Source of the DNA: Escallonia rubra | Lineage: Eukaryota; Streptophyta; Magnoliopsida; Escalloniales; Escalloniaceae | Assembly (NCBI GenBank): GCA_033065855.1 | Contig: JAVXUO010002823.1 | Span: 1 to 64,000, forward strand | Length of the DNA stretch: 64,000 nt | Direction of reading: 5' to 3' | Part shown: positions 5,771-56,811 of the stretch, one piece after another | How positions within the stretch are numbered: position 1 is the first letter of the stretch | Layout of the letters: every line of letters begins with the position of its first letter | The notes under the pieces: model-generated | Told to the model about the DNA's origin: nothing | Databases searched by the model: none | Seen by the model: the letters and a program-made list of their open reading frames with translations, nothing else | Translations under genes and position numbers: made by a program

Positions 5771-5924
5771 GTGCTTTTCTGAATGGGATAGGACCACTAC
5801 CTGTTCAAGAGTGGAGGGGAAATATGTAGACATGTTGTAACATTCATGCATTGATATTTACATCGGCAATGCCTAATCACTGGTCATTATTGAAGGTGGT
5901 ATACAGTACGATAATTCAGTCGTC

Positions 5925-8900
5925 ATGTCAGTCGATCGAAGTTGGATGAAAAGGAAGAATGCTGAAGATTTTGAGTGTCGCGTTGACGAATTTCTCGACT
6001 TCGCTTATGCGCATCCTGCACATGTTGACCTTGATAAGATAAGGTGCCCGTGCGGTAGATGTGAGTTGTTGCACTGGAGAAAAAGAATTGAAGTAAAATG
6101 GCATCTTCGTCGGTACGGTTTTATGGGTGGATACACAAGGTGGACGCAGCACGGGGAAACGATAGTATTGTCGTCCAACCTGGCTAGTCAAACTGAAGTT
6201 AGGGAGGAGGCACGATATGATTTCCGAGATATGATTATGGATGCTGGGCATGCTAATGTTGACTGGGGTAACGACAGGCCACAACCGCCGAACGAGGGGG
6301 CTCATCAGTTTTATGAGTTGTTGAGAGCTGCGGAAGAGCCGCTGTGGGATGGAGCTCCGAAACACACACGGCTGTCTGCGGTTAGTAGGTTATTACAGTT
6401 GAAATCAGACCACGGGCTGAGTGAGAAAGGTTTTAACGAGTTTGTTACCTTCATCAAAGAAATACTGCCCGAAAGTGAAAAGCTACCGCCGTCGTACTAT
6501 GACGCGAAGAAGATGATGAGGAAACTTGGGTTGAGCTACGACCGGATAGATGCGTGCAATAACGATTGTGTATTATTCTGGAAAGAGAATAAGGATTTGT
6601 CATTATGTCCAGTGTGTGATCATTCGAGGTACAAACCGGACAAAGGGAAGAAGAAAAACATTGCATGGAAGATATTGCGATATTTCCCGGTCACACCACG
6701 GCTTCAGAGAATGTACTACTCCTCCAGTACGGCTGAACATATGAGGGCTCACCGTGAGACTCGCAGCAACGATGCCGATGTGCTGACACACCCAGCTGAT
6801 GGAGAGGCGTGGAAGGAGTTTGACCGCAGGCATCCAGTTTTTGCTCAGGAAGTTCGGAATGTTAGACTTGGTCTGGCAACCGATGGGTTCAACCCTTTCG
6901 GTCAGTCTACCACGCCTTACTCCTGTTGGCCTGTTATTATTGTCCCTTACAACCTTCCACCAGGCATGTGCATGAAGAAGCCGTATATGTTCTTGTCGTT
7001 GCTTATTCCGGGGCCGAAGAGTCCCGGTAAGGACATAGATGTGTATTTAAGGCCGTTGATTGATGAGTTAAAACAATTATGGAATCATGGAGTCGAAACA
7101 TATGATGCATCCCTTAAACAAAATTTTCAGATGAGGGCTGCTTTGATGTGGACTATACATGATTTCCCCGCATTGGGAATGACGTGTGGCTGGAGCACAC
7201 ATGGGAAGCTAGCATGCCCTGCTTGTATGGGCGTGAACCCCGGTCATACGTTAAAGCACGGCGGAAAGGCCTCGTGGTTCGGATGTCACCGTAAGCTTTT
7301 GCCACCGGGCCATCAGTTTCGTAGGCAGAAGGATAAATTTGACGGGACAATCGAGCGTGAGGTTGTCACGCTGGACTACCCATCTGGTGAAGAAGTACTC
7401 TCACACCTGGAGGCACTTGATACTGACATACCACACGGTAAGGGTGTGCCGGATCAGAAGATTGCAGGGTTCGGGAAAGAGCACAACTGGAGAAAATTTT
7501 GTATCTTCTGGGAGTTAGCCTACTGGAGGACGCTCGTTATCCGAAACAACATGGATGTGATGCATATTGAGAAGAACGTTTTTGATAATGTGTTCAACAC
7601 AGTGATGAATTTCAAGGGCAAATCGAAAGATCACCTTAAAGCGAGAAGGGATCTACAACAGTTGGGTGTACGCCGTGAATTGCATCCTCGGACAGTCAGT
7701 GGGAGGACCATACTTCCGAAAGCACCTTACTGTCTAGACAAGAAACAAGTGGAGAAGGTCTGTCAGTGGGTTAAGAATTTGAAGCTTCCGGATGGGTTTG
7801 CGTCCAACATATCTCGTTGTTGCAATGTATCGGAATGCAAGTTCCAAGGGATGAAGAGTCACGACTGCCACGTATTCATGGAGAGATTCATTCCTATTGC
7901 CTTCCGGGGACTGTTGCCACGGGTTGTTTGCGAGACTTTGACTGAATTATCTCATTTCTTTCGAGATATATGCTCTTCTACGATCCGGGTGAGTAACATG
8001 GAAGTGCTTGAGAAGAACATTGTGGTGACGATTTGCAAGCTGGAGAAAATCTTCCCACCTTCGTTCTTTGATTCAATGGAGCATCTGCCTGTTCACTTGG
8101 CATATGAAGCTAAGATGGGTGGACCCGTGCAATATCGGTGGATGTATCCCTTCGAGAGGTAATCCTTAAATTGTTACAGTTGTTCGTTTACACTTAATGC
8201 GACATCTGTTATCATTGATATTCCACCTAACTCGATTCCCTAAACTTCTAGGTTCATGTTCCATTTAAAGAAAAAAGTCCGTAATAAGGCTCGGGTTGAG
8301 GGCTCAATTGCGGAGGCTTACGTAATGGAAGAACTTGTAAACTTTTGTAGTCAATATTTCGGTTCGGATGTTGGTACAAGGTTAAATCAACTAGGCCGAA
8401 ATGATCCCGGAGCAAGCACAAATTTGGAAGGGCAATTGTCAATATTCAAGCAGTCAGGTAGTCCGTTCGGCCGAACGTATACTCGATGGCTAACAGATGA
8501 AGAGTACAGTGCTGCAACAATATATGCCCTTCTAAATTGCGATGAAGTTTCGGCATTCGTTGAGTAAGTTAAAGTCTTAATTCACTTACATTGCTGTACA
8601 TAATTGAAAGTGTGTGTTAAGCGAGTTAGATGCATATTGGTTTGCAGTGAGTTCGATGCGGAATCTTTAATCACTGATCCCGCTGGACTTGAATCTCATC
8701 GGAAATCACAATTTGTACAGTGGTTCAAAATCCGTGTAAGATTATTTAACGAAATTATATTATGTGTTATATACAGTTCTGTGGCCAATTAGTATACTGA
8801 TTTATCCTTAATTTTTACCGTCATCTACAATAGGTTCAGTCAATGGATAGACCAGTGGCCTCCTGCTTGAAATTACTAGCCGAAGGCCCTAACAAACAAA

Positions 8901-13524: not shown

Positions 13525-15801
13525 ATGACTGGATTATTGAAGAAACTGAAGCGTGGATCGTCATCGTGAAAAACATCATCATCATCGCAAGCACCACCAC
13601 CAGCACAAGCGCCAGCGCCACGGCCATCACAAACACCAATCCAAGCACCAACACAACCATTCGTTCCTGGACGAATGAGTACAGGCTGTATGATAGATAC
13701 CCAAGCCAATTGGGAGTTCAATCAAAACATTCCAGATTTTGAATACACGCCTGATGAAGACCCCCCGCATTATAGTCAAGGACGCAGCTCGGTTGGCGAA
13801 GCTACTACTCCGTGGCATAATCTCAACCCTATGCCTGGTCATGATGAAGAAGGGCCGAGCAATGCCTCCGGTAACGTGCCAGAAGTCCAAAAGGGAAAAA
13901 AAAAGAAAGCCGAGTGTTGGAATCATTTCGACGTAGTTACGGTGGACGGCATCCGAAAAGCTCGATGTAAGTACTGTCTTAAATTATTTTCGTCTGGTAG
14001 TGGTAATGGACATCTTAACAGGCATTACCCTCAGTGTGCACCTTGACAAGGCCACGTCGAACCTACCCAAACGCAGTTATCTTTTGACGGTAAGTTATTT
14101 GTTTATAATCAGCGAGAGCAAAGAGACGGTCTCGCTGAATTTGTTATTCATGATGAACAAGCCTTTTCTTTTGCCGATAATCCTAAGCACTCTAGATATA
14201 TGAACACATACGTTCAACCTTTGTACAAAAAGGTTCATAGAAACACAACTAGATCCAATGCACTCCGACATTACAATGCTGCCAAAGCACGCCTTATCGA
14301 TTATTTCGATAAATTTGACGGTAAAGTTAGTCTTACTTCTGATATTTGGCAATCTCCTTATACTTTTGTTAGTTATTCTTGTGTGACCGCTCATTGGATT
14401 GATGCAGATTGGGTTATGCACAAGAGAATCATCGCTTTCGAGCACTTCCCTTATCCGCACGATGGAATGAACATTGCTATTCTTATATTAAAAGCATGCA
14501 CCACATTTAAAATAAAGGATAAGATTATGAGTGTTAGTTTTGATAATGCTTCTAATAATAAAGTTGCTGTTGCAGCTTTAAAGGAGACGCTTCAACCTGT
14601 ACTTAATGGTGAATTATTTCATGTTCGCTGTGTTTGTCACATTATTAATTTAATTGTTCAAGATGGTTTAGCTGCTGCAGGAGATATTCTTCTCAAAATG
14701 AGGGGTATGACAGCGTATGTTAATAGCTCGAGTTCGAGAACACAACAATTTAAAACGTTGTGTGTTCAATATAATATGCCTCGCAGGAGAGCAGTTACAG
14801 ATGTGGTCCACAGGTGGAACTCTACATACCACATGCTTTTACACATTCTGGCATACCGAGAAGTCTATACGCATTTTCTACTAACCCATTTCCCAGCCGG
14901 CTTGCCAACTCAAGAGGAATGGCAGATGGCCACATACCTAGCTGAATTTTTGGAGGTATTCTACACGTCTACCAATTTATTGTCTGGTACGTACTATCCC
15001 ACCTCTCCTCTCGCTGTAATAGAAATTCTGAAGATGGCTACAATGTTAACAAAATGGAGATATATAGGACCCTTTAGGGAAATAGTAAAAGTGATGGATG
15101 AAAAGTTTAATAAATATTGGAGTAAACTGCCTGCTATTTTTACTGTGGCTACTTGTTTAGATCCTAGGTTAAAGTTGCATGGCGTGAATGCCTCGATACA
15201 AGAGATATCGAAATTAATGTGCTACATAGCAGAGGAGACAACCTTGCTCACAGCAAAAGTGAGCAAGAGGTTTGAGGACTTGTTCAACCTCTATCGTAAT
15301 TCTGCTGACATGCGCGGGCGAGCTACATCATCATCCACTGTTGAGAGGTATTATGCGCCATACCTTCAGGGCTTTGAACATCTAGTAGCGAGACAACTAC
15401 CAGGTGAAGGTATTTCTAATTTGGGAGGTTCGTATACTTTTTCCTCTTTTAATGAGATTGGTGTATATGCAAATACTGATCATTATTCTGATTTATCAAG
15501 GCAAGAACAGGTTAATTTTAATTTGTTAAATTTTTGGAAACAAAATCAAAACATGTATAAAACTTTATCCCAAATTGCACGGGATGTACTGCCAGTGCAA
15601 GCCTCCACGGTTGCTTCAGAGTCGGCATTTTCAGCCAGCGGGAGGGTTTTGGATGACAGGAGGAGTCGTCTTAACCCCGAGTCGCTCGAGCTATGTGTAT
15701 GTTGGAAGGATTATCTTGATGCGAAATACCGCGAGCAAGATAAACCGATTGATGATAGGAAGAGCAGTGACTCGGATATTGAAGTACTTCCGGATGATTA
15801 G
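13525..15801 (+). pseudogene. hAT transposase (BED zinc finger), two in-frame TGA codons
   Basis: One frame runs from ATG 13525 to TAG 15801 (about 758 codons) and is broken only by TGA at 13567-13569 and TGA at 14044-14046. The N-terminal part is Gln/Pro-rich. A BED zinc finger follows (WNHF...ARCKYC...HLNRHYPQC, about 13918-14040). The catalytic hAT region includes LTSDIWQS, SFDNASNN and HIINLIVQDGL. The C-terminal dimerisation block reads STVASESAFSASGRVLDDRRS. The second hAT copy has CGG and CAA where this copy has TGA, so both stops are mutations. A shorter start at 13675 would avoid only the first stop. As written, no full transposase can be made without readthrough. Confidence 0.9.
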
Positions 15802-35212: not shown

Positions 35213-38200
35213 TCACTTCATCTCTAAATTTGGGTAAAGTCCCATCCCCCTCGATGCTTCCATCACTAGGCCTCTCCCTAGTGGCTTAGTCAGAGGATCA
35301 GCCAAGTTCCTCTCTGACCTCACAAAATTCATAGATACGGTACCGTTCTCAATTAGCTGCCTCACAGTAGCATGTCGCATCCGGATGTGACGACTCTTCC
35401 CATTATATATTTTGCTTTTAGCTCGAGCAATAGCAGCTTGACAATCACAATGCATCACCACAGGTGGACTAGGTTTACTCCACAAAGGTATATCAATCAA
35501 GAAACTTCTGAGCCACTCTGCTTCAGAACAAGCCTTCTCTAAGGCAATCAACTCTGATTCCATGGTGGATTTAGCAATAACTGTCTGCTTGGACGACTTC
35601 CAAGAGATCGATCCTCCAGCTAGTAGGAACACATATCCACTAGTGGGCTTTAACTCATCTGAATCTGAAATCCAACAATAACCTTCAAGTACAGAAGGAT
35701 GACCACAATATGTTAATCCATAATCAATTGTGCCTCTCAAATATCTCAATAACCTGGATATTGCATTCCAATGTTCCTCACTAGGATTATGAGTATATCT
35801 ACTCAATCTGCCAACTGCATATGCAATATCAGGACGAGTATGATTCATCAAAAACATCAGGCTACCAATTATTTGTGCAAACTTATTTTGTGACACACTG
35901 TCACCATAATTTTTCACAAGGTGCATTTTTGCATCATAAGGTGAAGACAAAGATGTACAATCATAATGCTCATATTTTCTCAGTATGTTCTCAACAAAGT
36001 GTGACTGTGATAATGTGATAGAATCATCATGCCTCAAAATTTTGATTCCCAAAATGACATTAGCTTCACCCATATCTTTCATGTCAAATTTAGATGCTAA
36101 AAATCTCTTAGTAGTATGCACGATATCAATGCTTGTTCCAAATATAAGCAGGTCATCAACGTACAAGCATATAATGATAACACTATCATTAACACACTTA
36201 TAATAAATGCACTTGTCAGCATTGTTAATCAAGAATCCATCAGATATCATCACGCTATCAAATTTTTCATGCCATTGTTTAGGAGCTTGTTTCAATCCGT
36301 ACAAGGATTTAACCAACTTACACACTTTATTTTCTTGTCCGGGGACCACGTATCCCTCGGGCTGCTCCATGTATATTTCTTCTTCTAAATCTCCATTTAG
36401 AAAAGCAGTTTTAACATCCATTTGATGCACAACAAGTTTATGTATGGATGCAATGGCAAATAAAATTCTGATAGATGCAATTCTACTAACAGGAGAGTAT
36501 GTATCAAAATAATCAACATTCTGTTTTTGTTTGTAGCCTTTAGCCACCAGTCGCTCCTTATATTTCTCAATGGAACCATCTGGTTTTAACTTTTTCTTAA
36601 AGACCCATTTACAACCAATAGGTCTATTCTTATAAGGCAAGTCTACAAGTTCCCAAGTATGATTAGACATGATAGAATCTAATTCATTATTAATGGCTTC
36701 TCTCCAAAAAGGTGCATCTATAGAAACTATAGCATCATGATATGACAATGGTTCATCATTAACAAGATACACATAATCATCTCCAAAACTAGTTTCAGTT
36801 CGCATTCTCTTGCTTCTTCTTAACTCTAGAGTTTCACCAATAGGATTATCAGCACTAGCATGCTCATCAATAACTCTAGGCATTTTATTTTTCATAGGAA
36901 AAATATTCTCAAAGAAAGAAGCATTTTTAGATTCAATAATAGTATTGGCTTCCATGACATCACTCTTAATAACAAGAAATTTGTATGCAATACTATTAGA
37001 AGCATAACCAATGAACACGCAATCACAAGTTCGAGAACCCAATTTTCTCTTTTTAGGCTCAGGTAACATAACCTTTGCCAGGCACCCCCACACTTTCAGG
37101 TACTCCAAGTTAGGAGCTCAACCATTCCAAATTTGATAAGGTGTTTTACCGGTCTTTTTATGGGGTACTCTATTTTGTACGTGACAGGCTGAGAGAATGG
37201 CTTCCCCCCACATGTTGGCAGGTAGGCCAGAACTAACAAGCATAGCATTCATCATTTCTTTTAAAGTCCTATTTTTTCTCTCAGCAATTCCATTTGATTC
37301 AGGTGAATAAGGTGGAGTTACTTCGTGAATAATTCCATTTTGCAAACAGAAATCATCAAACGGATTAGAGTCATATTCACCACCTCTATCAGTTCTAAGC
37401 CTTTTAATTTTCTTATCCTTTTAATTTTTAACTTCAGACTTATAATTCATGAACATTTCAAGAGCTTCGCGTTTCATCCTTAACAGATAGAGGTCTAGTG
37501 AATCTAGAACAATCATCAACAAAGATCACATAAAACTTTTTACCACCTCTAGTCATCGTTTGTTTTAAATCACCTAAATCACTGTGAATTAAGTCAAGGG
37601 GTTCACTTTCTCTTGTGACAGGTTTACATGTTTTCTTGGTACTTTGGTTTCAGCACAAATTTCACACTTGTCTATATTGGACTCATTAAAATTAAAGATC
37701 AAACCCATCTCTTTCATTTTCTTAATGTACCCATAATTCACATGTCCAAGTCTATCATGCCACACATCAGCAGAGTCAATCAAGTAAGCAAAAGTAGACG
37801 ATGCATTCTCATTCAACAATTTAACAACATTAAGTACATAAAGGCCTTGGTCAAGATATCCCTTACCGACAAAGACGTCATTTTTTGTTAGAGTCACAAT
37901 ACCTCCGTCGAACATAGTCTTGATGCCAGCTTTACCGAGTAGCTGTACTGACACAAGGTTGTGCTTGATCATCGGCACGTGAAGCACATCGGATAGTGAG
38001 AGGGTTTTACCAGATGTGAGTTTGAGAACTACCCTTCCCTTTCCCATAACTGGTACGGACCTGTTGTCCCCAACGTACACGCATTCTGTACCTTCCCCCA
38101 CATTTAAGTAGGAGGCGAACACATCTCGGTTAGCACATATGTGCCTAGTGGCACCCGAGTCTAAGACCCATCCCTTCACTTCCGTAACCAAGTGCACTTC

Positions 38201-39160
38201 TGACACTACAGCTGCAATGATATCATCATCTGCTTCAACAATGTTTGCTCTCGCCCTTGGTGGAGCCCTTCTATTATTGTTGTTGTGGTGGCGGTGCTGG
38301 TAGTTATTGTGGTTTTGGTCGGCTTTTCGATATCTACAAACATTTGCATAATGCCCTGCTTTTCCACAGAAAAAACATTCACCCTTTTTCTGTTGAATCT
38401 GTGGATTAGACACTTGACCTCTATTGTAGTTATTAGAATGGGGTCTCCCATAAGGCTTATGACCATATCCCCTATTGTGCGATTGTTGGGTCCTAACCGG
38501 TCCACTTTCAACTACATTAGCCTTAGACATCATTTCTTTAGCCCTACCAGTCATTTGCAATTTTCTATTTTGAGCCTCAATTTTAATATAGACTATTGTT
38601 TCCTGTAGAGTCATAGCGTGCCTCTTTTGTCTAAATTTTAATTTAAATTCTTTCCATGAGTCAGGCAATTTTTCTACAAGACATTGAGCCTTAAATCTTT
38701 CAGGTAAAACGTCACCCTCTTTAGCTAATCCATTTATAATATTTTGAAAATCATTAATTTGAGTTTCAATGCTTTTATCATCAGCCATTTGATAGTGCAA
38801 AAAATTAACGGCTAAAAACTTTTTAGTGCCTTTATCCTCAAATTCGTACTTGCTAACTAATTCATCCCATAAACCCTTAGCAAGAGTAAAGTGATTATAA
38901 ACGCCATATAGATCATTAGATAAACTATTACGAATAGTACTAAGACAAAATCTATTAGCGTTATTCCATTTTTCTAAGACTTGAGCATAATTTTCGGTAT
39001 TGTTATCCGGCACAGGCTCAGTCAGAACGAACGAGATTTTAGAAAAATCCAAGACATCCAAAACCATGTCTTTCCATCTTTTAAAATTATTTCCGTCAAA
39101 ACGTTCAATTCGACTTGCGTCCGGAATAACTTTCGTTTGTGCGAGAAGTTGCGATTCCAT
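35213..39160 (-). pseudogene. Copia B gag-pol polyprotein with about three lesions
   Basis: Start ATG is at 39160 (MESQLLAQTKVIPDASRIERFDG). The gag zinc knuckle is CFFCGKAGHYANVC, and the protease motif is WVLDSGATRHICA. GAG-pre-integrase follows (VWHDRLGHVNY...CEICAETK). A one-base loss in a C run near 37598 shifts the frame at NPL. A stop (TAA) lies near 37425 in the integrase core between KSEVKN and KDKKIKRLRTDRGGEYD. A TGA lies near 37111 in [18 protein letters not shown]. Reverse transcriptase keeps YVDD, with [15 protein letters not shown] before it, and RNase H ends [10 protein letters not shown]. The long 35213-37108 frame is intact. These few lesions suggest a younger insertion than Copia A. 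Confidence 0.9.
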
Positions 39161-39355
39161 TTTAATCAACCTTTTAGAATGTTGGATATAAATCCGTTTA
39201 AATCATTTTTGGAGCAGAATCGCACTTTCTTACACAAAATCAAGATACAATATAAATAATATCACGTTACAAAATACATTAAAACAATCTCACCAAACTA
39301 TAAAATCAAGCCGAGGCTTTGTCCTAAAAGGTTGATTCGCGCTCCCCGGAACCAA

Positions 39356-44479: not shown

Positions 44480-46540
44480 CCAAGCAGTTCAACTATGCAA
44501 GCACATTGTACAATTTCTTTTTATTGTAAAGCACACGATCAGCACAGCACCTCTTCTTCCTCCTACCACAGCCCAGATCAATCACTCAGCTCACGGTTTT
44601 CCCTCCATTCCTCACACGCCCACACATACATACATTACACTACACTGCACACACACATTACACACACTTGCAAGCATATTCCATACACCCACACAAACAC
44701 ATACACTCCATCTTCTCCCCTTTCCTTCCCATAAACCCAATTCACAAACCTCACCCCTGTACACCTCCATTCTCATTATACACACTCAAACATACACAAC
44801 ACACCCACATTTCAATTACGCGCACGCGCGCACACACACATACACCCAAAACACCCATGTACTTACAACTCACACATGCACAGATTTTCACACCCACACC
44901 CACTGTCTCACGGCAGTGGGTCTCTCTCTCTGTTTTTTTTTTTAACACACTCACACACACCAAATACATAGCCACAGGTTCACACAAACACAACACATTA
45001 TATGTATACACGACACCCATTTCTTTCACTCCATCCACACAGGGGCGGACCACCCCCATGACGGGGGGGGGGGGGGCGGGCATGGCACCCCTCATATTTT
45101 TGGAATTTTTCTTTTAGTTTCTTAGAAAATGGATAAACACGTTTAAAATATTTCAAATGTTTACAAAAAATTATTATATTTTAATATTAATTTATTAGAA
45201 TTTTATTTTGTTGTGTCTTTTATTCTTTGTGAACTATCATACTCTTTATTTTTGTCATTTTCTTGCTCTATGTTCATTCTTTCTAAATCTCCACATTACA
45301 AAAAAACTAGAATAGATTAAGGTTCATTCCTTTTTTTTTTTAGTTTAAATTCTTATAATTGGTTAACTGATACATTATTAATGTACTCATACAGTTAATA
45401 ATCACATTAGTAATATATTTATACAGCAAGAGTTAAGCTTTTTTCATGCAAAATTAAAATTTTATTTTTGACTAACTTTGACAAGTTAAATAAATCACTA
45501 TGCATAGTGAAAATATATTGTTAGTAGTCAAATTGAGTAATCTATTTGTATTTGACGGATTCAATAGTGACGCTAATTATAATGTGTTTTTGATTATTCA
45601 TGTTTTATGTAAATTTGAACCTTCTAAATTCTTTTATATTAGCTATATCAATTTTTTTTAATGATTTTTTGTCACCCCTGATTAGACTTTCTGGATCTGC
45701 CCCTGCATTCAGACACCCACATATAGACTATACGTACATATATTCATATACACACAACCCACTTCACGTCAGCCCCTTCTTCCTCTCTCAAACGCCACAA
45801 CACCCACTTGTTCATCCACATAAATCACCTTTACACAGTCGGTCCCCACTCACATAACATAACAAGGCGGCCACCATGGCTGCCCTTAACATGACCTTTA
45901 CCTTCATTTCTCTCCATTGTCTTCTAACACCCTCACCAGCACATATACTATATAACTATGGCAGCCATGGCCGCCCTTTTAACCATAGCCCTTTTTCTCC
46001 CTCAGACCTACACACATACGCGCACTATGGCAGCCGCCATGACTGCCCTCACTTCACGCACCAGACAATCCACAATCCCAGCTCTTTTATTCCCATATAG
46101 CAATGACGAAATTGGGAGAAAAAAAACTAGAAGACTTACCGGATATTGGATCGACTCGCCGGAAAACTTGTCGGCAGCTCTCTCTCCCTTTCTCTCGTTC
46201 CCTTATCTTTCTCTTTTCTCTTTCTTTCTCTTCCACAAGAGCGCAGACACACAGATCTTCTCTTAAAATTCTCTCTCCCCCCCCCCCCTCTTCCGTAACC
46301 AAAAAATGTATCTCTCTATATGTAACCAAAATCCTACTTAAATCTCTCAATTATTTTTCCTCCTTTTTTTCCCCTAATAGAAGGAGTGGCATATATTTTT
46401 TTTAAGAATAAAATCAGATTTCCTTGAAATCTTTTATTTATCCAACAGTCCCCATTTTAAATTTTATATTTATAACTAGCTCTGCTACACTAATCGTAGC
46501 TAAAAGTTGCTAATAATGCATCTATGCTAAGTAAGTTAAT
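44480..46540. other. CA-rich non-coding DNA with a nested hAT-like element
   Basis: From 44560 to 45035 and again at 45705-45860 the plus strand is rich in CACACA words. A run of 14 G lies at 45063-45076, and CT-rich DNA lies at 46180-46300. Open frames here are low-complexity. It may continue the inverted old repeat, since the other copy is also TG-rich at the equivalent place (62080-62410). Confidence 0.5.
45040..45705. mobile_element. Probable non-autonomous hAT-like element, 666 bp
   Basis: The ends CAGGGGCGGA and TCTGCCCCTG are inverted repeats with one mismatch, of a type common for plant hAT elements. The flanking octamers CATCCACA and CATTCAGA match at six of eight positions, so the target duplication is imperfect. 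The interior is AT-rich without coding potential. Confidence 0.6.
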
Positions 46541-46541
46541 A

Positions 46542-46576
<35 letters not shown>

Positions 46577-46586
46577 GTATATATAT
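46540..46586. repeat. (AT)n microsatellite at the left border of the MULE
   Basis: Alternating AT with two interruptions runs directly into the element. Similar AT runs occur at its right border and beyond the next element. Confidence 0.9.
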
Positions 46587-46826
46587 GGAGCTGATCCCTT
46601 GACAGCGTAGGCAAAATAGGATATCTTGCCAGCGCGATCTGGCCGTCCATCCCTTCGGGATGGACGGTCCAGATCACTTTTTTTTGCGGCGCTGTCAGTC
46701 GTCCGCTACACTGTGTAGCTGACGGATCTTTTTACCATCTTGCCCTCACTCACCCGTCCGCTAGACTGTGTAGCGGACGACATTCTTGGGCCAACAAAAA
46801 GTAGTCCGCTACACTGTCTAGCGGAC
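46587..46826 (+). repeat. Left terminal inverted repeat of the MULE
   Basis: Matches 55190-55439 in inverse with few differences. It includes the self-complementary CCGTCCATCCCTTCGGGATG region and three of the 23-bp palindromes (46701-46723, 46756-46778, 46804-46826). A fourth, slightly further in, is at 46911-46933. Confidence 0.92.
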
Positions 46827-47313
46827 GACTGTTTCCGTCAAACCACCCACTTCCCCCTGACAGTTGTCACATCAGTCGATGCACGACTGTTACTTTGTCG
46901 TTATCCCAGCGTCCGCAACACAGTGTAGCGGACGTTGGCAAGTATTCGAAACCTTCTAAACTTCTATTCATTCCTTCTTCTCACAATCAAACTATTCCTT
47001 CTTCTCACGATCAAACCAGCGGCGTTGGCAAGTAGATCGGCGCAATTTCTTTGCAAGAAATCCTTTAATCGTCTCATCAATCACGTAAGTTCAGAAACTA
47101 ATCCTTTCTTTGTTCATAATCTAGAGTTCATCTTGCAGCGTTGGCAAGTAGATCGGCACTATGCTAGCGTTTGTCAATGTATATACATATATAGTATATA
47201 TGTGTATTGCGTATTATCTGATCACATGCTAGCGCTGAATATGCTAGCGTTGTATGTTTGGGAATGTTTACGCTTCCAACCTTGCCCTCTTTCCATTATT
47301 TCAGTTGCAAAAA

Positions 47314-50300
47314 ATGGATTTCAACCCTGGACCAGAAGATTCGTCCGTATTATACGACCAAGCATCCCATATCAGTACGCTCATATGGGATGGTGGAGTA
47401 AGATACTTATTTTATCGTTTATATCGTTTATTCTGCTTACGTATTTCAGTTGCGAACGTTGTATATCGTTTATTTTGCTTAAATAATATTTATTAATTCG
47501 TAGGAAAGAGCACTTGTCAACACGGTAGAAGTAAGCGATAATTTCAACGCCTGGAAATTGAACAGAACCCAGAAAAGATTACTGCGTGGGATTGGGTTTG
47601 GGATTTTCACGCATGGGCAGATCTTTCAACAACTTGACCGGCACTTAATAGGTGCCCTTGTTGAAAGGTGGAGAAGTGAAACGAATACGTTTCACTTCCC
47701 TCTCGGAGAGATGACAATTACCCTAGAAGATGTAGGGTTCATCTTAGGGTTACCGGTGACGGGGCGGCCGGTAATAGCTCGTCCGTCCGAAGCAACGAAT
47801 AAGAGGACCGCTAGGGACTTCTTTACTTCGATACCCCAGGATGGATTTAGCAGTGGTGGTATCAAGTTGAAGTGGTTGGTAGATACCTACGGGGTTTTAC
47901 CGGAAAACTATACGGGCCATGACCTTGTGATGTACACACAAGCCTTCCTCTGGTGGGTGATGGGGGCAATATTATTCCCAACGACGTCGAAGAACACGGT
48001 CAGCGTCAAATATTTACCGTTTTTGCGTAACCTGGCTGAGGTTGGGGATTATGCCTGGGGTGCAGCAACTCTTGCATACCTGTACCGAGCATTGCACAAG
48101 GCAACGAGGCCCGACTCCAAAGCGATATGTGCATGTCTCTCGCTATTGCAGGTATATCATACAATTCTTCATTACGTGCTCTTTGTTGTTTTTTTTTTTT
48201 TTGAATGGACAATAAATGTTGACGATACTTTTTTTAATGTCTTTGCTCTCAGGTGTGGTCTTATGAACACCTTGCTACCGGCGCACCCAGGCGTAGGGAC
48301 GGAACAGATAATGTGTGGCCTCGGTTGTGCGCCTGGGAGTACAGCCGGAAGGAAACCCACTACGAGAGGAGAGACGATCCCCATCACAACATTTCATACT
48401 ATCGGGGGGAGCTCGACTCGTTATCTCCTGGCCAGATGCGATGGGCACCGTACAAACGTTTGGCGCGACGGGTGGGAGAGTCGTTCATCTTCACGCTCTC
48501 CGGGTTGCAACGCACACCCCTAATCCACTTCGAGGTCGCAGAGTGGCAGCTGCCAAATCGTGCTATGCGCCATTTTGACTGCCGGCGCGCCAGATATGAG
48601 GCTTAACAGGAACCCACCAGGTGTCGGACTGTTTGGCAGGGCAAATGCGCATGAGTTGTGCACGCGTGAAATTGAGGTCTGGAATTCTTGGCAGGACACG
48701 CTGGTGGCCATTGTGTCGGAGCCTGACCCCGTCATCAGCATCGAACAGTACAATGAGTGGTACTACCGCATCACCCGGAGGAAAGTAGCTCCAGTAAGGT
48801 TTGAACGCAGGGAGAAGTACCACCCTAGGGGTCAGATCGATGAGCACATGGCATACAATCTGGTAAGTTGCCCAACCAGTGCTTCTAATTGAACTTGATC
48901 ATTCTAAGTGTGTACGAAGTTACTTATTTATTATCTCTCTGGATGTAGGTTAATGCCTCGTTCGCCTTCTTCCAGAAGTTGAGCGAGCGGAAGGATTTGG
49001 TGGATGCCATGGGCGAGGAGCTTCACCAACAGGCTGAAGCGTTGGCGCTTGGCTGCGGGAATTTTTTGCGGCAAACATCGGGACAGCCAAACCCGGGAAT
49101 GGGTTATCCGGGGTGGCAGCGGCCGTTTGTTCCCGAGGGATGCACCGATCCCTCGGGACAGACTTCGGGAGTGAGCCAGGGATATGGTTTTCCCTCTGTA
49201 CCGGAGATGGGTGGTGATTGGGGACCGCCAAGCACCATGGGCCAGGCTCAAGCGCCGTGGGAAGATTACAGTGCGCCCTCCTTCTCTTTACTATTGGATT
49301 CGAAACCCCAACCCCTCTCTCAGAGTCAAGTCACGCAAGACTGGGGTTGCAGAAACATCAGTCTGCCCATTGTCCCGTGGGCAGGACCATCTATTGCCGA
49401 AGGCGGGCAATACCCCCCTGTTGACCCCCCTGAAGGAGTGCAATATCGACCCCCCCCGAAGGAGTGCAATATCCCTCCGTCGACCCCTTCGAAGGAGTGC
49501 AATACCCCCCGGTCGACCCCCGAGGGCAATATCGCAAAGGGCATCCGTTGAAGCCCCTAAAGCCGCAGAAATGCCAGATAATCAGAGAGCGTTATTTTAG
49601 CGGCGTCCCGCATGACCAAGCGTTGTATAGTGTGGATCATCCGGAGGGCATGGATTACAGTTGCTCGTGGGGAGAACTGGCCTCCCTGGCTCCGGGGAGT
49701 TGGTTAGACAACGGTGTCGTCTCCACCTACGTGGAGATTCTGAAGGAAAGGTGTCGGCAGCAGCCGACCTATCCGGCCGTTTTTTTGTTCGATGCCTTTT
49801 TTCATGGCATCCTAGTGTCTGAATGGCAGGAGTGGGTCGAAAATAAGGGGAAGAAAAAGTTGGCCCAGTGGAGACCGTCCGTTAACCTACGAGCGTATCT
49901 TAATAGGGATAGTCCGGTGAGCGCAAGTGTTGCCGATGTGTTTCTAATCCCATTTCTAGGGCAAAGCCACTGGTACTTGGTTTGCTACTCCCCAACAAGT
50001 AAAGTCGTATCGGTGATCGACAGTCTCCACGACGATACTCATCAGATGCCTGTGCTGCAGATGTACAGAGCCCAGTTGGACTCGTTGGTAATATTACGAT
50101 CGCTGTATAATGCTCTGATTCTATCTTGCCATAAATTTTAACTCGTGTCTTACGCCATATTTTTTGTGCAATGGTCAATCGTGTCCGTGATGTCCCCGTA
50201 CCGGCGCGGCCAAATCTCGATAGGCGATTGAAGAAGAGGAGGCCCAAGCAACGTAACACTTCGGACTGCGGCGTCTTCCTTTGCATGTACATGGATTTCA

Positions 50301-50467
50301 TTTGTCGCTCTGAGAGCCTCAAGGCGGCCGTCTGGAGCCAAGCAGAAGTTGAAGCCTATAGATATAGAATAGCTTGGCAAATTATGAAAGGCCGGCCTAG
50401 AGCGGTTAGGTTTATAGAAAATCCGGCTAATGACGAGAATCCGCCCCAACATGCGGACCCCAGTTGA
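47314..50467 (+). pseudogene. PMD-Ulp1 fusion gene carried by the MULE, apparent frameshifts
   Basis: Exons at 47314-47397, 47504-48151, 48253-48862, 48949-50087 and about 50174-50467 give roughly 925 codons. The N-terminal half is a plant mobile domain (SSVLYDQASHISTLIWDG, FHFPLGEMTITLEDVGFILGLPV, LAYLYRALHKATR). A Gln/Pro-rich linker with short VQYPPVDPPEG repeats leads to a C48 (Ulp1/SUMO protease-like) domain with catalytic HWYLVCY, VIDSL and NTSDCGVFLCMY (His-Asp-Gln/Asn-Cys arrangement). Three problems appear: a one-base shift in the GC-rich run at 48581-48592, a shift at an eight-C run (49450-49457), and no AG acceptor before the last exon (TG instead). Two lie in runs prone to assembly error, so the gene may be intact in reality. 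The protein would act in the nucleus; its role in transposition is unknown. Confidence 0.85.
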
Positions 50468-50665
50468 AATTGTATCATAACAGTATTTTTTACATAAATC
50501 GTACGCCATTGGTGTGATTTGATTTGTGTTGATTTCTGTTGTCGAATACTGATTTTTCTGATGAACGTTGTTGGTTTTTTGGCCTCATTGGGAATGATTG
50601 AAATGTGGAAAACGAAATGGTGCAAAAATTTTCTAAGTAGTGAAGTTTAGTCTTTCTGCTGTGCC

Positions 50666-51022
50666 GTCCGCTATACAATGTAGCGGACAAATGTAGGTAG
50701 AGAATTTTTCTAAGTGTTGATGGGTGGAGGTTCTGCTGCGCCGTCCGCTACATTGTATGGCGGACGTAAAATGAAGACCAAATTTTTCTAAGTGTTGATG
50801 GGTGGAGTTTCTGCTGCGCCGTCCGCTACATTGTATGGCGGACGTAAAATGAAGACCAAATTTTTCTAAGTGTTGATGGGTGGAGTTTCTGCTGCGCCGT
50901 CCGCTACATTGTATGGCGGACGTAAAATGAAGACCAATTTTTTCTAAATGTTGATGGGTGGAGTTTCTATGCGGACGTAAAATCAGTTTCTGCTATGCCG
51001 TCCGCTACATTGTATCGCGGAC
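50666..51022. repeat. Palindrome cluster between the Ulp1 and B3 3' ends
   Basis: Five 23-bp palindromes (starts 50666, 50743, 50821, 50899 and 51000) with arms like GTCCGCTACA and TGTAGCGGAC sit in tandem units of 77-78 bases. The units also share GTTGATGGGTGGAGTTTCTG. A half copy lies at about 50971. The cluster separates two convergent genes. Confidence 0.93.
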
Positions 51023-51173
51023 GTAAAATCAGTTTCTGCAATTAACGTACGATTCACTATCAACAATCTCAATATATCGAGGGAATCTCAAACGACACAA
51101 TTAAGCACAATTAAGCGAGGAAAAATTTCGAAACACAATCAACAAGAACACAAATTATTTTATTAATAATAAA

Positions 51174-51644
51174 TTAGGGTTCACATTGGGGGAAAGAAAT
51201 TTTTTCACAAGTGCTCCGATCAAAGATTACAACTTGAAAATCCCACCACCCAAGGTGTTCAAACACTACAAAGTCCCCGAGTTCGAGGCCATGCTGGCGC
51301 ACGAAGACGTTCCAACCCTCTGCGAATTGCTTTTTTTGGGGTCGGCCGGGCTTCAGCTTGATTTCAACCTGCCATGCCCCCTTGCGGCTATATAATCTTG
51401 CACTGTCATGAATTGTTGTAAATTGATTGGTCAAGGCTTCCGGTATGTCCTAACAAACACAATACACAAAAAATAGGTTAGTTTTTAACCAAAAGATCAA
51501 ACCTTTAACACACGAAAATACAGAGATAGAGGGATGGCATACAAGTTCATTCTCAAACCCCGGCATCATGACTTTGAAAAAGTGTTTGCCTGCCAGGTGC
51601 AAGTTGCCAATAAAATCGTAGGTGGTCTCCGATCCAGAAGCCAT
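51174..51644 (-). CDS. Single-domain B3 DNA-binding protein in the MULE (two exons, 125 residues)
   Basis: On the minus strand, exon 51644-51543 (34 codons, ATG at 51644) joins exon 51449-51174 in frame through a GT-AG intron, giving 125 residues. Nearly the whole protein is one B3 domain: HFFKVMMPGFENEL at residues 21-34, then DIPEALTNQF, the GAWQVEIKL block, FAEGWNVFVRQHGLELGDFVVFEHLG and FQVVIFDRSTCEK. B3 domains are plant-specific DNA-binding folds (as in REM, ARF and VRN1 proteins). Its likely place is the nucleus. It lies between two clusters of palindromes. The upstream cluster (51821-52059) is 177 bases before its ATG, which would suit autoregulation. No lesion was found. Assignment to the B3 family is by motif order, and DNA target is inference. 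Confidence 0.85.
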
Positions 51645-51820
51645 CGAGGTCGGCGTTGAGGGGGGACGGTTTATCGCCGGAGTTGTGGGTCACCGGAGAT
51701 GTGGGTCGCCGGAGATGGAGTAGTGGCCTGGGCTAGATGTTCCAGACAGAGAGAGTGCCCTCCAGATTGGACTGATAACAGCCGATTGCCCGATATGATT
51801 AATATATATCATATAGACTT

Positions 51821-52059
51821 ATCCGCTACATTGTATAGCGGACGTAAAAGAAGACCAAAAGTTTTACTGTGATGACGTCCGCTATATTATATAGCGGACA
51901 TTAAAGAAGACCAAAAGTTTGCCTGCTCTGACGTCCGCTACATTGTATAGCGGACGTAAAAAGACCAAAAGTTTTACTTCGATGCCACCTCTCCGCTATA
52001 CAATATAGCGGACGTAAAAGACCAAAAGTCGATGACGTCCGCTACATTGTATAGCGGAC
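51821..52059. repeat. Palindrome cluster upstream of the B3 gene, downstream of MURA
   Basis: Five 23-bp palindromes start at 51821, 51877, 51933, 51991 and 52037, in units of mostly 56-58 bases that share GACGTAAAAGAAGACCAAAA. The arm and centre are those of the other cluster, but the spacer is different, so the two clusters were amplified separately. Confidence 0.93.
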
Positions 52060-52208
52060 GGGGCTTACAAAAAAAAAAAAACTTGAAATAAAGACTTTAG
52101 ATTTGATTCGATGGCCTCTCATAGGTCCATTTTAAAAAAATTCCAGTACCCGGTCGAAAAATTATCCCTCCGAAAATTATTACAAATGTCATAAAGTTGT
52201 ACAAAAAA

Positions 52209-54506
52209 TTAAAGGTCCACTGCAGCTTGTTCGTCCTCATCTTCGGCGTCACCTTCTTCCCCGTCTTGCAAACCCCCTGAACTTATCCCCAGTGCCTTGT
52301 AATGGTTCCGCTTGTCGTGGTCGGTCATTTTGTTGCACAATGCACACCTTCGCAGCTTTTTAGGTTGAGTTGCCGTTTCAATAGAGCTTTTCATCCGCGT
52401 AGATCTCTTGCGGCCTTTCGTTTGCGATATAATTGGATCCAACAAACGGATATCATTGTCGTCTTCCTCCTCCGGCTCGTCATCTTCTGATACCCCCGTC
52501 GTAGGCTCGGTGTCAATCGCATTGGTGACTGAAGCTGCTTCCAACTGGTCGACGATGGGCTCTTGTTGCTGAGCTACCTCGAGGAGATGTTTATAACCGA
52601 CCATTGTAGCAGCACCCTTTACGGACAAACGGGTGAACATCGTCACCAGATGATTATACCGCAACGTCTCTGATTCTTCAAAGTCAGTATACGGGTGCTC
52701 CGGAAAGGAAATGGTACCGTGCAACCTGTTTGCACCTTTTGTCCACCGTGGCAAGACGTATTTATCGGGGATTGTCCTGATATTCTTCTGGGTGAAAAAC
52801 CGCAGAACGTGTCTACACAGGATGCCATGGAACTCAAACTTCTTGCAAACACATGTCACCGAGTCCGTCAATGTGTCGTGGCTCACCGTATACATTCTGC
52901 GCAGCTTCTCAGGGACGAGGTCATTCACGAGCGAATAAACCTTGTACTCACGCGTAGACATTTCTGCCACCTTGTTTATACTGTATCGTCCGGATTTTCG
53001 CAGCTCTACTTGGTATAGCAAGAAGATCTCCTTCGTATAGACTTTGGCACCGTTCATCTCCAGCGGGGTCTCGAGCAACGTTCTCCTTTGTTTGTACGTT
53101 GTTGCAAAGTCGGCAGCCCTTTCTTTTACGAACAACGAAGCTACCGCTTTTTGTGCGGATGCAACGAAAGTCTTCAAATTGGTAGCTGTACCCACATAAC
53201 TATCGAACGTGGCATTCATGGATTCACTCCTGCCCGTCGTTTTCATGCCCGCTGAAAAATACCTCCTCGTGTAAACGCCAATCCATTGCTCTTTGCGCTC
53301 GTACAAGTGCTGGAGCCACTCGTTGTCTTGCAATGAGTAATCCCGAACAAGCTTTTCCCACCTCTCCTCGAATTCCTCAATCGTTAACGACTTGAGGACG
53401 CACTTGTCAAAATCCTGTTTAAAGTCTGGATACTTTGCGTACACGTGATGCAGCCGTTCCGGGTATTTGTTGCTTATGTGCCAGGTGCACAAGTTGTGCC
53501 GAGTGTCTGGGAAGACGGTCGCAATAGCCTTCTTCATTGCCAAATCTTGATCGGTGATGATCACTTTGGGTGCTTTGAAGTTCATTGCTTCCAGCCACGT
53601 CCTAAACAACCATTCAAAAGAACTCTCGGTCTCGTCCCTTAACAAGGCGAACCCGAACAGGATGGAGTGATAATGATGATTGACCCCCGTGAAAGGGGCG
53701 AACGGCATCGAGTACTTGTTGGTACGGTATGTGGTGTCGAACGTCACGACATCCCCAAAATGCTTATAAGCAAGCCTCGAACGACCGTCGACCCAAAAAA
53801 TTGTGCTAACTCGATGCTCGTCGTCAAGTTTATAATCGAAGGTCAACTGCGGGTCCTCCATCTGCATCCGTTTCAATAGGCTCATTGTGGCTTGAGCATC
53901 ATTGAGGTCATACGCGGCTCGTCTATGGGTTCGGACCGCGTTACGAACGTCTGTCGTGTTAAAGGTCAAATTTTGAATTCCCCCAGCCTGTTCAGCAAGA
54001 ACATTAATCATGTCGGTAGGTCCTAGTCGCGCATTGCTCATTGTCTGAATCAGGCTCCTTGCGACCTTACCCATCTTCTTGTGTTGATGCATCTCACTCA
54101 CCTTAGAAGGGGTTACTAACGGGTGATTGTGTGCCAGTTCCAGGCTGGTAATAAGCCAATGGTCTTGTTTGGGTTTGTAGCTTACGAACATCTTGACCTG
54201 GCAATTTGTGCGCTCAAAGCAGTCCCGTCTTCTACGCGGATATCCTATTTCGTCATCACTGTCATCATTGCCTACGCGTGTCTCATTTTGCACTGGGTTT
54301 CTGCTCCTATGGCACTCGTATAAGCGAGAGCATATCTTTCTCGTTATGGTGCTCGTTCTTGAAGTCTTTATTCTAATGCCAAAACCAACCCTCAATGAAT
54401 ACGCTCGAAAACATTCTTCAGCTTCTTCCAACGTAGCAAATGTTCGTCCTAGATACGGATCACTAGCATCTACGGGGACGTTGGAGCTCGACACGAAATC
54501 AGACAT
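52209..54506 (-). CDS. MURA/FAR1-type MULE transposase (765 residues)
   Basis: One unbroken frame from ATG 54506 to stop at 52209. Residues about 25-130 form a FAR1-type DNA-binding zinc finger (C59, C65, C102 region, ending AHNHPL). The MULE DDE transposase core is at about 245-435, with D257 in VVTFDTTYRTN, D319 and D321 in KVIITDQDLA, the CTWHISNKYP motif, and an acidic residue in GRSESMNATF (E428). A SWIM zinc finger follows (CVCKKFEFHGILCRH, residues about 552-566). Near the C terminus are a small CALCNKMTDHDKRNH zinc-knuckle-like motif and an acidic tail. It would cut and join the element ends in the nucleus. No intron, stop or shift is apparent, so it may be functional. Confidence 0.95.
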   Translation of the reverse strand: MSDFVSSSNVPVDASDPYLGRTFATLEEAEECFRAYSLRVGFGIRIKTSRTSTITRKICSRLYECHRSRNPVQNETRVGNDDSDDEIGYPRRRRDCFERTNCQVKMFVSYKPKQDHWLITSLELAHNHPLVTPSKVSEMHQHKKMGKVARSLIQTMSNARLGPTDMINVLAEQAGGIQNLTFNTTDVRNAVRTHRRAAYDLNDAQATMSLLKRMQMEDPQLTFDYKLDDEHRVSTIFWVDGRSRLAYKHFGDVVTFDTTYRTNKYSMPFAPFTGVNHHYHSILFGFALLRDETESSFEWLFRTWLEAMNFKAPKVIITDQDLAMKKAIATVFPDTRHNLCTWHISNKYPERLHHVYAKYPDFKQDFDKCVLKSLTIEEFEERWEKLVRDYSLQDNEWLQHLYERKEQWIGVYTRRYFSAGMKTTGRSESMNATFDSYVGTATNLKTFVASAQKAVASLFVKERAADFATTYKQRRTLLETPLEMNGAKVYTKEIFLLYQVELRKSGRYSINKVAEMSTREYKVYSLVNDLVPEKLRRMYTVSHDTLTDSVTCVCKKFEFHGILCRHVLRFFTQKNIRTIPDKYVLPRWTKGANRLHGTISFPEHPYTDFEESETLRYNHLVTMFTRLSVKGAATMVGYKHLLEVAQQQEPIVDQLEAASVTNAIDTEPTTGVSEDDEPEEEDDNDIRLLDPIISQTKGRKRSTRMKSSIETATQPKKLRRCALCNKMTDHDKRNHYKALGISSGGLQDGEEGDAEDEDEQAAVDL

Positions 54507-55092
54507 TGTGAAACAAGAGCTGTGTAGAAATAGACTACGCTTAACAATTAAATGGCATTTCTAACTGAAAATATCACCTAAAAATTAGGATGACAAACAT
54601 ACGGTATGCATAATCTCAAAAGTGTCTCCAAATTAACAATTATTAATTTATTGAACATAACAAATTTAAATTAGTAAGATAAATAGACGAATTCATCATG
54701 CCAAAAAATCGAATTAAACTATAATGAATTAAATATAAAGTTAACAAATTATACCTTTTTGATGAACATCATGTCTAGAACATCACAAAAAATCTAGAGT
54801 ATAAAATCACAAATTGATGAATACAGTGACAAATTTCTAGAACATCAAGAAAACTTGAAGCAAACTTACCTTGCTTGAGCGAAGCTTGAAGCAAGTGTTA
54901 CTCGAAGCTTGAAGGCAGCTGAAAATGGAAGCGAGTCCGAAGGAGAAGAAAATTGTGCTCAAAGAAAATTGAGTAGGCTTGAAGGCAGCTGAAAATGGAA
55001 GCGAGTCCGAAGGAGAAGAAAATTGTGCTGAAAGAATTGAGTAGAAGAAAATTGTGCTGAAAGAAAATTAAGTAGTGGGGATGGGCAATACT
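54507..55092. other. Upstream region of the MULE transposase
   Basis: AT-rich with a 53-base exact tandem repeat (GCTTGAAGGCAGCTGAAAAT at 54907 and 54977, period 70). No coding frame. This should hold the MURA promoter, but no convincing TATA box can be singled out. Confidence 0.55.
54907..55029. repeat. 70-bp tandem repeat upstream of MURA
   Basis: The words at 54907-54959 and 54977-55029 are the same over 53 bases. A shorter third copy of GAAGAAAATTGTGCTGAAAG follows. Confidence 0.9.
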
Positions 55093-55189
55093 GTCCGCTA
55101 TACTGTGTAGCGGACAGAATTGCCGACATCAAGTCACACTTGTGTCAGACAAGTCACAATTGTGTCAGAATTACATAGTTGTGACAGTC

Positions 55190-55439
55190 GTCCGCTGGAC
55201 AGTGTAGCGGACTACTTTTTGTCGGAGGATGTGGGCCCAAGAATGTCGTCCGCTACACAGTCTAGCGGACGGGTGAGCGAGGGCAAGATGGTAAAAAGAT
55301 CCGTCCGCTACACAGTGTAGCGGACGACTGACAGCGCCGCAAAAAATAGTGATATGGACCGTCCATCCCGAAGGGATGGACGGCCAGATCGCGCTGGCAA
55401 GATATCTTATTTTGCCTACGCTGTCAAGGGATCAGCTCC
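55190..55439 (-). repeat. Right terminal inverted repeat of the MULE
   Basis: Inverse of the left end. It contains palindromes at 55190-55212, 55248-55270 and 55303-55325, the last being a perfect 11+1+11 palindrome. A fourth lies at 55093-55115 just inside. Confidence 0.92.
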
Positions 55440-55469
55440 CATATATATATATATATATATATATATATG

Positions 55470-56694
55470 GGAGCTGATCCGTTGAGAGCGCGGGCAAAAT
55501 AGGAGATCTTGCAAACGCGATCTGGCCGTCCATCCTGAAAGATTTATGGCCCAGATCGCGCTTTTTTCGAATATTGTCAGTCATCCGCGACACTATGTCG
55601 CGGACGGATTTTTTTACATTTTTGCCCCTCCGCCCGTCCGCTACATTGTATCACGGACTGTCCAAATATTTTTTTTACGTTTTTTTTTAGTTCGTCTGCT
55701 ACATAATGTAGCGGACGATTTTTTGATAAAAATACAGTCTTGTTCCGTCCGCTACATTATGTAGCGGAGGAGTAGGCAGCACTATTTTTTTTTTCTGTTG
55801 CGCATTCTGAACCATCATTATCAGCACCCATCTTTCCATCAATCTGCCGCCACTGTCTTCACACCCACCCACACACACACCCATTAGCACACACATCACG
55901 TTTGCCAGTCGCTCACCCACGACCACACCTCCGTCAATCGCAGACCCACGGCCTACAGCGGCCACCAACAAAGACGGTGGTAGTTCGAGAAGATCACGAT
56001 CACAAAGACGGTGCTACTCCCCTCTCCTTCTTTTTTCACACACAGGCGCACCAATCCCCTCGCCCTCACCTTCTCACGGCAGCCATGGCTGCTTACCCAC
56101 GAACCCATCATTGTATCTCATTAGAGCCAGAAGCGGAGCTGCCTTCCTCGGTCGTCGCCGGAAGCGGAGCTGCCTTCCTCTGTCGTCGCGCGCCAAGAGG
56201 CTTCCTCTTCCCTTCGGTTTCTGGCATGGACGAGAGAGAGAGAGAGTCAGAGAGTTAATTAGAGAAAGAGAAAACGATGATGAGAGAGAGGAGAGAGAAA
56301 GGAAAAATGTCAGAACATTAAATGAGGAAAATGAGAGAGAAAGAGGAAAAAGTCAGAAGATTAGTCCGCTACATAATGTAGCGGACGGAAGCTATAGGGT
56401 ATTTTTGTCAAAAAATTGTCCGCTACATTATGTAGCGGACGTACTTAAAACAAACGTAAAAAAAAATATTTGGACCTCCGCGATACAGTGTAGCGGACTT
56501 GAATGCTGTCCGGGAAACAATGTAGCGGAAGGGGCGGAGGGGCAAAAAGGTAAAAACAGTCCATCCGCGACATAGTGTCGCGGACGACTGACAGTATTCA
56601 AAAAAGGCCCTATCTGGGCCGTCCATCTTTCAGGATGGACGGCCAGATCACGTTTGCAAGATCTCTTATTTTGCTAACGCTCTCAACGGATCAG

Positions 56695-56697
<3 letters not shown>
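55470..56697. mobile_element. Related non-autonomous MULE, 1.23 kb
   Basis: The ends are GGAGCTGATCCGTTGAGAGC and its inverse, related to but diverged from the neighbouring large element. It has nine palindromes (starts 55583, 55636, 55694, 55747, 56364, 56418, 56476, 56508 and 56563) at the equivalent terminal zones. It has no transposase. The interior (55800-56250) contains CCACC-rich sequence, a duplicated GCGGAGCTGCCTTCCTC, and GA repeats that could be a captured gene fragment. It is flanked by (AT)n on both sides and lies 30 bases from the large element. Confidence 0.88.

Positions 56698-56755
<58 letters not shown>
56697..56755. repeat. (AT)n microsatellite, about 58 bases
   Basis: A pure TA run directly abuts the right end of the small MULE. 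Confidence 0.95.
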
Positions 56756-56756
<1 letters not shown>

Positions 56757-56811
56757 TTGCTAAAAATTTTGTATTAACCCGTTAAAATATATCGGTGTAT
56801 TACAGCTTCTC

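Follow-up and report, generated by a model that had tools for sequence, protein, structure and literature searches.

The DNA examined here, referred to as the window, is a stretch of 64,000 nt of Escallonia rubra contig JAVXUO010002823.1 (positions 1 to 64,000, forward strand). A large Mutator-like element (MULE), named E1, lies at 46587..55439 within a TA microsatellite and carries three genes. Next to it a related MULE without recognised genes, E2, occupies 55470..56698. The subject of this study is a palindrome of 23 letters, GTCCGCTACA-N3-TGTAGCGGAC, which was found in 27 copies, 18 in E1 and nine in E2. E1 is a MULE by its MULE-type transposase and its long terminal inverted repeats (TIRs). 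The left TIR of 210 nt (46587..46796, forward strand) is 97% complementary to the right TIR (55230..55439, reverse strand). Since both flanks of E1 are AT repeats, a target-site duplication, expected to be about 9 bp for a MULE, is not distinguishable there.

The first gene of E1, PMD-Ulp1 (47314..50467, forward strand), combines a plant mobile domain (PMD) with a C48 protease. The PMD was matched at 7.5e-72 on the joined exons 2 and 3, and C48 at 8.3e-5 and 8.6e-7 on two open reading frame (ORF) pieces. The frame of this gene shifts near 48,600 and between 49,434 and 49,551, unless introns outside the model are present. A tandem repeat of CCGAAGGAGTGCAATA at 49397-49521 was observed in or near the region of the frame change (48590-49551). 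The second gene (51174..51644, reverse strand) codes for a single-domain B3 protein of 125 aa with a Pfam B3 match of 1.9e-9, and its frame is open in a two-exon model (51644-51543 and 51449-51174). The third gene (52209..54506, reverse strand) encodes the transposase of 765 aa in an open frame, with an N-terminal FAR1 domain (3.9e-13), the MULE domain PF10551 (3.7e-33) and a SWIM domain (5.3e-5).

Distribution of the palindrome

Searching the window with the pattern GTCCGCTACANNNTGTAGCGGAC and up to three mismatches gave 26 matches, while 100 shuffled sequences gave 0.00 on average and 0 at most. A looser search with up to five substitutions added the 27th copy at 56508 (four substitutions) and none outside E1 and E2. 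As a control of specificity only, the exact pattern with its 20 fixed bases was searched in viral and in bacterial and archaeal contigs, with 0 matches in each. A first-pass annotation of this DNA had counted 18 copies in 46701-55325, grouped as 4+5+5+4. Number and coordinates proved to be exact, but the statement that the palindrome is confined to this one MULE was too narrow, as nine more copies are located in the adjoining E2.

Upstream of PMD-Ulp1, the left group of E1 (46701..46933) comprises four palindromes (46701, 46756, 46804, 46911). The five copies of the internal cluster B (50666..51022; 50666, 50743, 50821, 50899, 51000) follow each other in steps of 77, 78, 78 and 101 bp. PMD-Ulp1 and B3 converge on this cluster with their 3' ends, and hence it lies in no promoter of the E1 genes. 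Cluster C (51821..52059) also has five copies (51821, 51877, 51933, 51991, 52037), in steps of 46-58 bp. It lies 177-415 bp upstream of the B3 start codon and is the cluster nearest to any start codon. Four further copies form the right group (55093..55325; 55093, 55190, 55248, 55303) upstream of the transposase gene. Thus, as the first-pass annotation had noted, all three genes have a set of sites upstream of the start codon, for B3 at a distance of 177 bp, for PMD-Ulp1 of about 380 bp and for the transposase of about 590 bp. A 70-bp tandem duplication and shorter AAGAAAATTGTGCTGA repeats were seen at 54907-55075, in the stretch that separates the start of the transposase from the right group. 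In E2 a left group of four palindromes (55583..55769; 55583, 55636, 55694, 55747) and a right group of five (56364..56585; 56364, 56418, 56476, 56508, 56563) were identified, 56508 by the looser search only. A site-plus-spacer unit present in the right group is missing from the left one.

The annotation also stated that exons are free of the palindrome. A comparison of coordinates supports this, since no copy overlaps a coding exon of the gene models. These models are rough and cover coding exons only; some limits of the PMD-Ulp1 exons are approximate and some exons have no splice signal at their end, so that the coding total of 5,466 of the 8,853 bases of E1 is approximate. About 38% of E1 is non-coding in the model, and by our judgement the 18 copies reduce to roughly three independent groups, because one TIR is a copy of the other and each internal cluster is a tandem array. 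Hence, the exclusion from exons is statistically weak.

E2 has TIRs related to those of E1, with about 77-79% identity to the E1 ends, and its longest ORF gave no Pfam match. The interior of E2 (about 55800-56340) may have been captured from the host; no source was found within the window. Both elements are situated in AT microsatellites (46539-46586, 55441-55468 and 56699-56754), and the 28-bp AT tract is common to both. Other transposons in the window are represented by a tnp2 (CACTA-type) transposase, a hAT transposase and a copia gag with reverse transcriptase (5877-8159, 14047-15798, 35216-39202).

A second, different palindrome, CCGTCCATCCC-N3-GGGATGGACGG, was detected once in each TIR of E1, at 46643..46667 on the left and at 55359..55383 on the right. 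In E2 a variant with a longer centre is kept at the right end (56619-56642), and at the left end (55526-55549) the palindrome is decayed.

Conserved bases and origin of the arrays

The half-site TCCGCNANA fits 49 of the 54 arms; the exceptions are one arm each of the copies at 46701, 55190, 55636, 55694 and 56508. Within the window TCCGCNANA occurs 49 times (24 on the forward and 25 on the reverse strand), always inside the palindromes. These half-sites share the 3-base centre, and no half-site occurs alone or with another centre length in the 64 kb. The bases kept are TCCGC-n-A-n-A, whereas positions 7, 9 and 11 drift. No change was found in the 54 arms at positions 2, 3, 5 and 10, one at position 8 and two each at positions 4 and 6, compared with seven at position 1, 12 at position 7, 20 at position 9 and 23 at position 11. 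As the copies are not independent, these counts are descriptive only. The 25-mers around the 27 sites contain 94 CpG, with an observed/expected ratio of 1.71; outside the sites the ratio is 0.79-0.97 in the non-coding parts of E1 and 0.92 in E2.

Pairing between the arms was examined over all 27 sites. With 248 of 297 pairs formed, the observed value equals the average of 10,000 shuffles (247.4), and 4,814 of these reached it. All 11 pairs are present in four copies overall and in two of the 18 copies of E1 (51877 and 55303), and position 9 pairs in 11 of 27 sites. Alternative symmetric pairs (G-C at position 7 in two sites, T-A at position 9 in two and T-A at position 11 in five) are overall no commoner than in shuffles. 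The two arms are linked by column composition only, and there is no covariation.

The first-pass annotation had proposed that the two internal clusters were amplified independently. This is rejected, as the spacers of B and C are homologous. Their best local score was 18, while 200 single-base shuffles reached no more than 15, and they share the block GTAAAA(T)GAAGACCAAA. This homology points to a shared ancestral unit, which was later amplified at different unit lengths. The spacers of the left end of E1 match neither those of C (72 of 200 shuffles reach the score) nor those of B (200 of 200), and the same holds for the left spacers of E2 (193 of 200 for C, 166 of 200 for B). The left spacers of E1 and E2 are related to each other (1 of 200). 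Steps of 53-58 bp account for 12 of the 21 neighbour-to-neighbour steps within groups (46701-56585) and occur at the E1 ends, in cluster C and at the E2 ends. They recur although the spacers of cluster C are unrelated to those of the ends; shared descent explains the recurrence in part.

A probable binding site for a protein of the element

In our assessment the palindromes are probably recognition sites for a dimeric protein encoded by the MULE itself, which would serve self-activation or anti-silencing in a similar way to the VANC proteins of VANDAL elements. The fixed spacing of the half-sites together with the base-specific conservation suggests a dimeric DNA-binding protein. Each arm would represent one half-site, and the centre of three bases would set the geometry of the dimer. 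Through arrays at both ends, upstream of genes and where the 3' ends converge, this protein would load densely on the element's own copies and, in trans, on relatives such as E2. The loaded protein would keep the DNA open for transcription and transposition. As E2 holds nine sites but no recognised genes, action in trans is suggested. Binding by a protein, the coding of this protein by the element and an outcome of activation or anti-silencing are what we infer from the sequence. The first-pass annotation had also interpreted the palindrome as a binding site. This part stands, since a protein-binding site fits best with the kept bases, the lack of covariation, the fixed centre and the presence of sites in the diverged E2; the independent amplification that went with it does not.

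If a protein binds, the B3 protein would be the first candidate, though at somewhat less than an even chance, because it is a lone DNA-binding domain with the nearest cluster in its own upstream region. The FAR1 transposase may come next, as a rather doubtful candidate, followed closely by PMD-Ulp1, and a host factor would be the least likely binder.

A role of the sites in transposition itself has to be discussed. The transposase could bind the palindromes through its FAR1 domain to assemble the ends, as on subterminal repeats, with internal clusters that are by-products or bound as well. We consider this unlikely, but it is the alternative to be taken most seriously, and it would overlap with the reading as a regulatory site if the transposase also regulates. 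Both E1 and E2 have sites at each end, and for its movement E2 should require no more than end sequences. However, ten of the 18 sites of E1 are internal and far from the ends, and the second palindrome, present once per TIR of E1 and nearer to the end, is placed more like an end-recognition site and would be the better candidate for this function. Binding by a host transcription factor, with a site that the element exploits for its expression, seems improbable. The location upstream of all three genes would agree with it; on the other hand, TCCGCNANA is missing from the 64 kb outside the two elements, which is weak evidence as it concerns the window only.

About equally improbable is an array without function, which would have spread by replication slippage, by unequal exchange or in the form of small mobile palindromes, and would owe its persistence to the young age of the elements. 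Clusters B and C are indeed tandem arrays with homologous units, E2 differs between its ends by one site-plus-spacer unit, and the outer parts of the ends are as conserved between E1 and E2 as the sites. The comparison of the ends (four alignments of E1 with E2, and E2 left with E2 right) speaks against it in the inner parts. Sites 1, 3 and 5 are identical at 18-20 of 23 positions between E1 and E2, whereas the two inner spacers next to sites are identical at only 6-9 of 37 and 7-9 of 23-24 positions, i.e. they no longer align. In addition, the very unequal variation within the site, from no change in 54 arms to 23, is not in favour of passive spreading. Finally, a hairpin or cruciform, folded as RNA or DNA and acting for example as a small-RNA source or terminator, is very improbable. 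The arms are self-complementary and a few copies form all pairs, but pairing does not exceed that of shuffles, position 9 is mostly unpaired, and no Rfam family was found at the gathering threshold in 46500-56800. A site bound by a dimer is preferred to a hairpin because the bases of the half-site are kept and not the pairing.

Several observations weigh against a binding site of the element under constraint. In the outer 114 alignment columns the E2 ends agree with E1 at 86-88 of 113 positions, and the first spacer does so at 22 of 30; both are conserved about as well as the sites. Site 2 agrees with E2 right at only 16 of 22 positions and has no copy in E2 left, the second spacer consists mostly of gaps, and the E2 site at columns 290-312 has no counterpart in E1. 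Within E2, left against right, 84 of 92 positions agree in the sites and 78 of 95 in the spacers, a small difference. Moreover, the aligner tends to line palindromes up, so that identity of sites is no proof of positional descent, and it is from the comparison of two elements, E1 and E2, that we infer selection. A putative constraint is therefore argued from two things, the inner parts of the ends and the unequal variation of positions within the site. Cluster B has a 3' end on either side, and a promoter site would not be expected there. PMD-Ulp1 may be broken, and this copy of E1 may therefore be inactive. For B3 the best match among solved structures in PDB, VRN1, is weak (E 0.029), and VRN1 is presumably not strongly sequence-specific. 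The likeness to VANC is limited as well. DUF1985 was found in PMD-Ulp1 below the cut-off only (E 0.14 and 0.17; 12.3 bits compared with a cut-off of 35.1), 'palindrom' is absent from the VANC paper PMC10398659, and VANC21 motifs are arrayed in one orientation according to passages of PMC5735166.

Comparison with known systems

Anti-silencing by a protein of the element has an experimental precedent in VANDAL elements. In passages of two reports, binding of VANC21 and VANC6 to motifs in the non-coding DNA of VANDAL elements is described as leading to loss of methylation (PMC5735166, PMC10398659). The motifs given in the former are YAGTATTAY for VANC21 and AGTTGTCC/AGTTGTAC for VANC6 (PMC5735166). 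Some VANC genes carry Ulp1 (KIU subgroup) and act likewise, and VANDAL elements are termed non-TIR, as stated in parts of a review (PMC13317346). As far as these passages go, both systems have a short motif repeated in non-coding MULE DNA, often in expanding or contracting tandem arrays and common to related copies. In contrast, E1 has a 23-bp palindrome with two half-sites, long TIRs, PMD-Ulp1 and a separate B3 gene, and its C48 peptidase is apparently joined to the PMD rather than to a VANC protein. Membership of E1 in VANDAL/VANC is not supported, on account of the long TIRs and a DUF1985 score that stays below the cut-off, with the PMD found instead. The resemblance of E1 to a VANC system is one of anatomy only.

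MuTAnT elements of Medicago truncatula are likewise MULEs in TA microsatellites and comprise an autonomous copy as well as small relatives, according to excerpts of PMC4486113. The autonomous AutoMuTAnT has 4,873 bp and one transposase gene, and motif arrays are not described in these excerpts (PMC4486113). An identity of the TIRs was rejected, as the MuTAnT search mask GGGGTTTGCTAGAACA from the same excerpts and the start of E1, GGAGCTGATCC, compared by eye, do not match (PMC4486113). For the PMD, capture by MULEs was reported, and its use in anti-silencing is offered as speculation in the sections concerned (PMC5418596). There, MULE-linked PMD-C proteins are transposase fusions in grasses and Amborella, whereas E1 has a separate gene that combines the PMD with Ulp1 (PMC5418596). 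An unexplained link of PMD proteins to the promoter motif DOWN is mentioned in part of another study (PMC7156037). Interrupted repeats are described for Arabidopsis mobile elements including VANDAL, with no binding protein named in the passages covering them (PMC10342631). A wheat transcriptomics paper has 'B3 domain', 'Mutator-like' and 'MULE' once each (PMC12111241). A literature search joining MULE features with the B3 domain, VANC and the plant mobile domain gave no paper that combines most of them, and among the matches listed in a text search for the arm sequences none looked related by title.

In the maize CACTA element Spm/En a single short site is repeated many times near the ends and is bound by the element protein TnpA, a protein that also counters methylation. 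The many copies of a short site near the ends are shared with E1. The TnpA sites are 12 bp long and subterminal and not internal, in contrast to those of E1, which are internal as well.

Tentatively, E1 could belong to a TIR-type MULE lineage apart from VANDAL with its own system of anti-silencing or self-activation, in which B3 or PMD-Ulp1 would read the palindromic arrays, also in trans on gene-less relatives; we regard this as possible, though it has less than an even chance. If true, recognition of motif arrays would have evolved independently, based on a palindrome as dimer site and on a protein of a new kind, and a function would be suggested for B3 and PMD-Ulp1 genes in MULEs. Owing to its length and distinctiveness, the site lends itself to direct testing. 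With a second lineage that uses different proteins and a longer, palindromic site beside VANDAL, dense arrays would appear as a recurrent route of plant transposons to selective escape from silencing.

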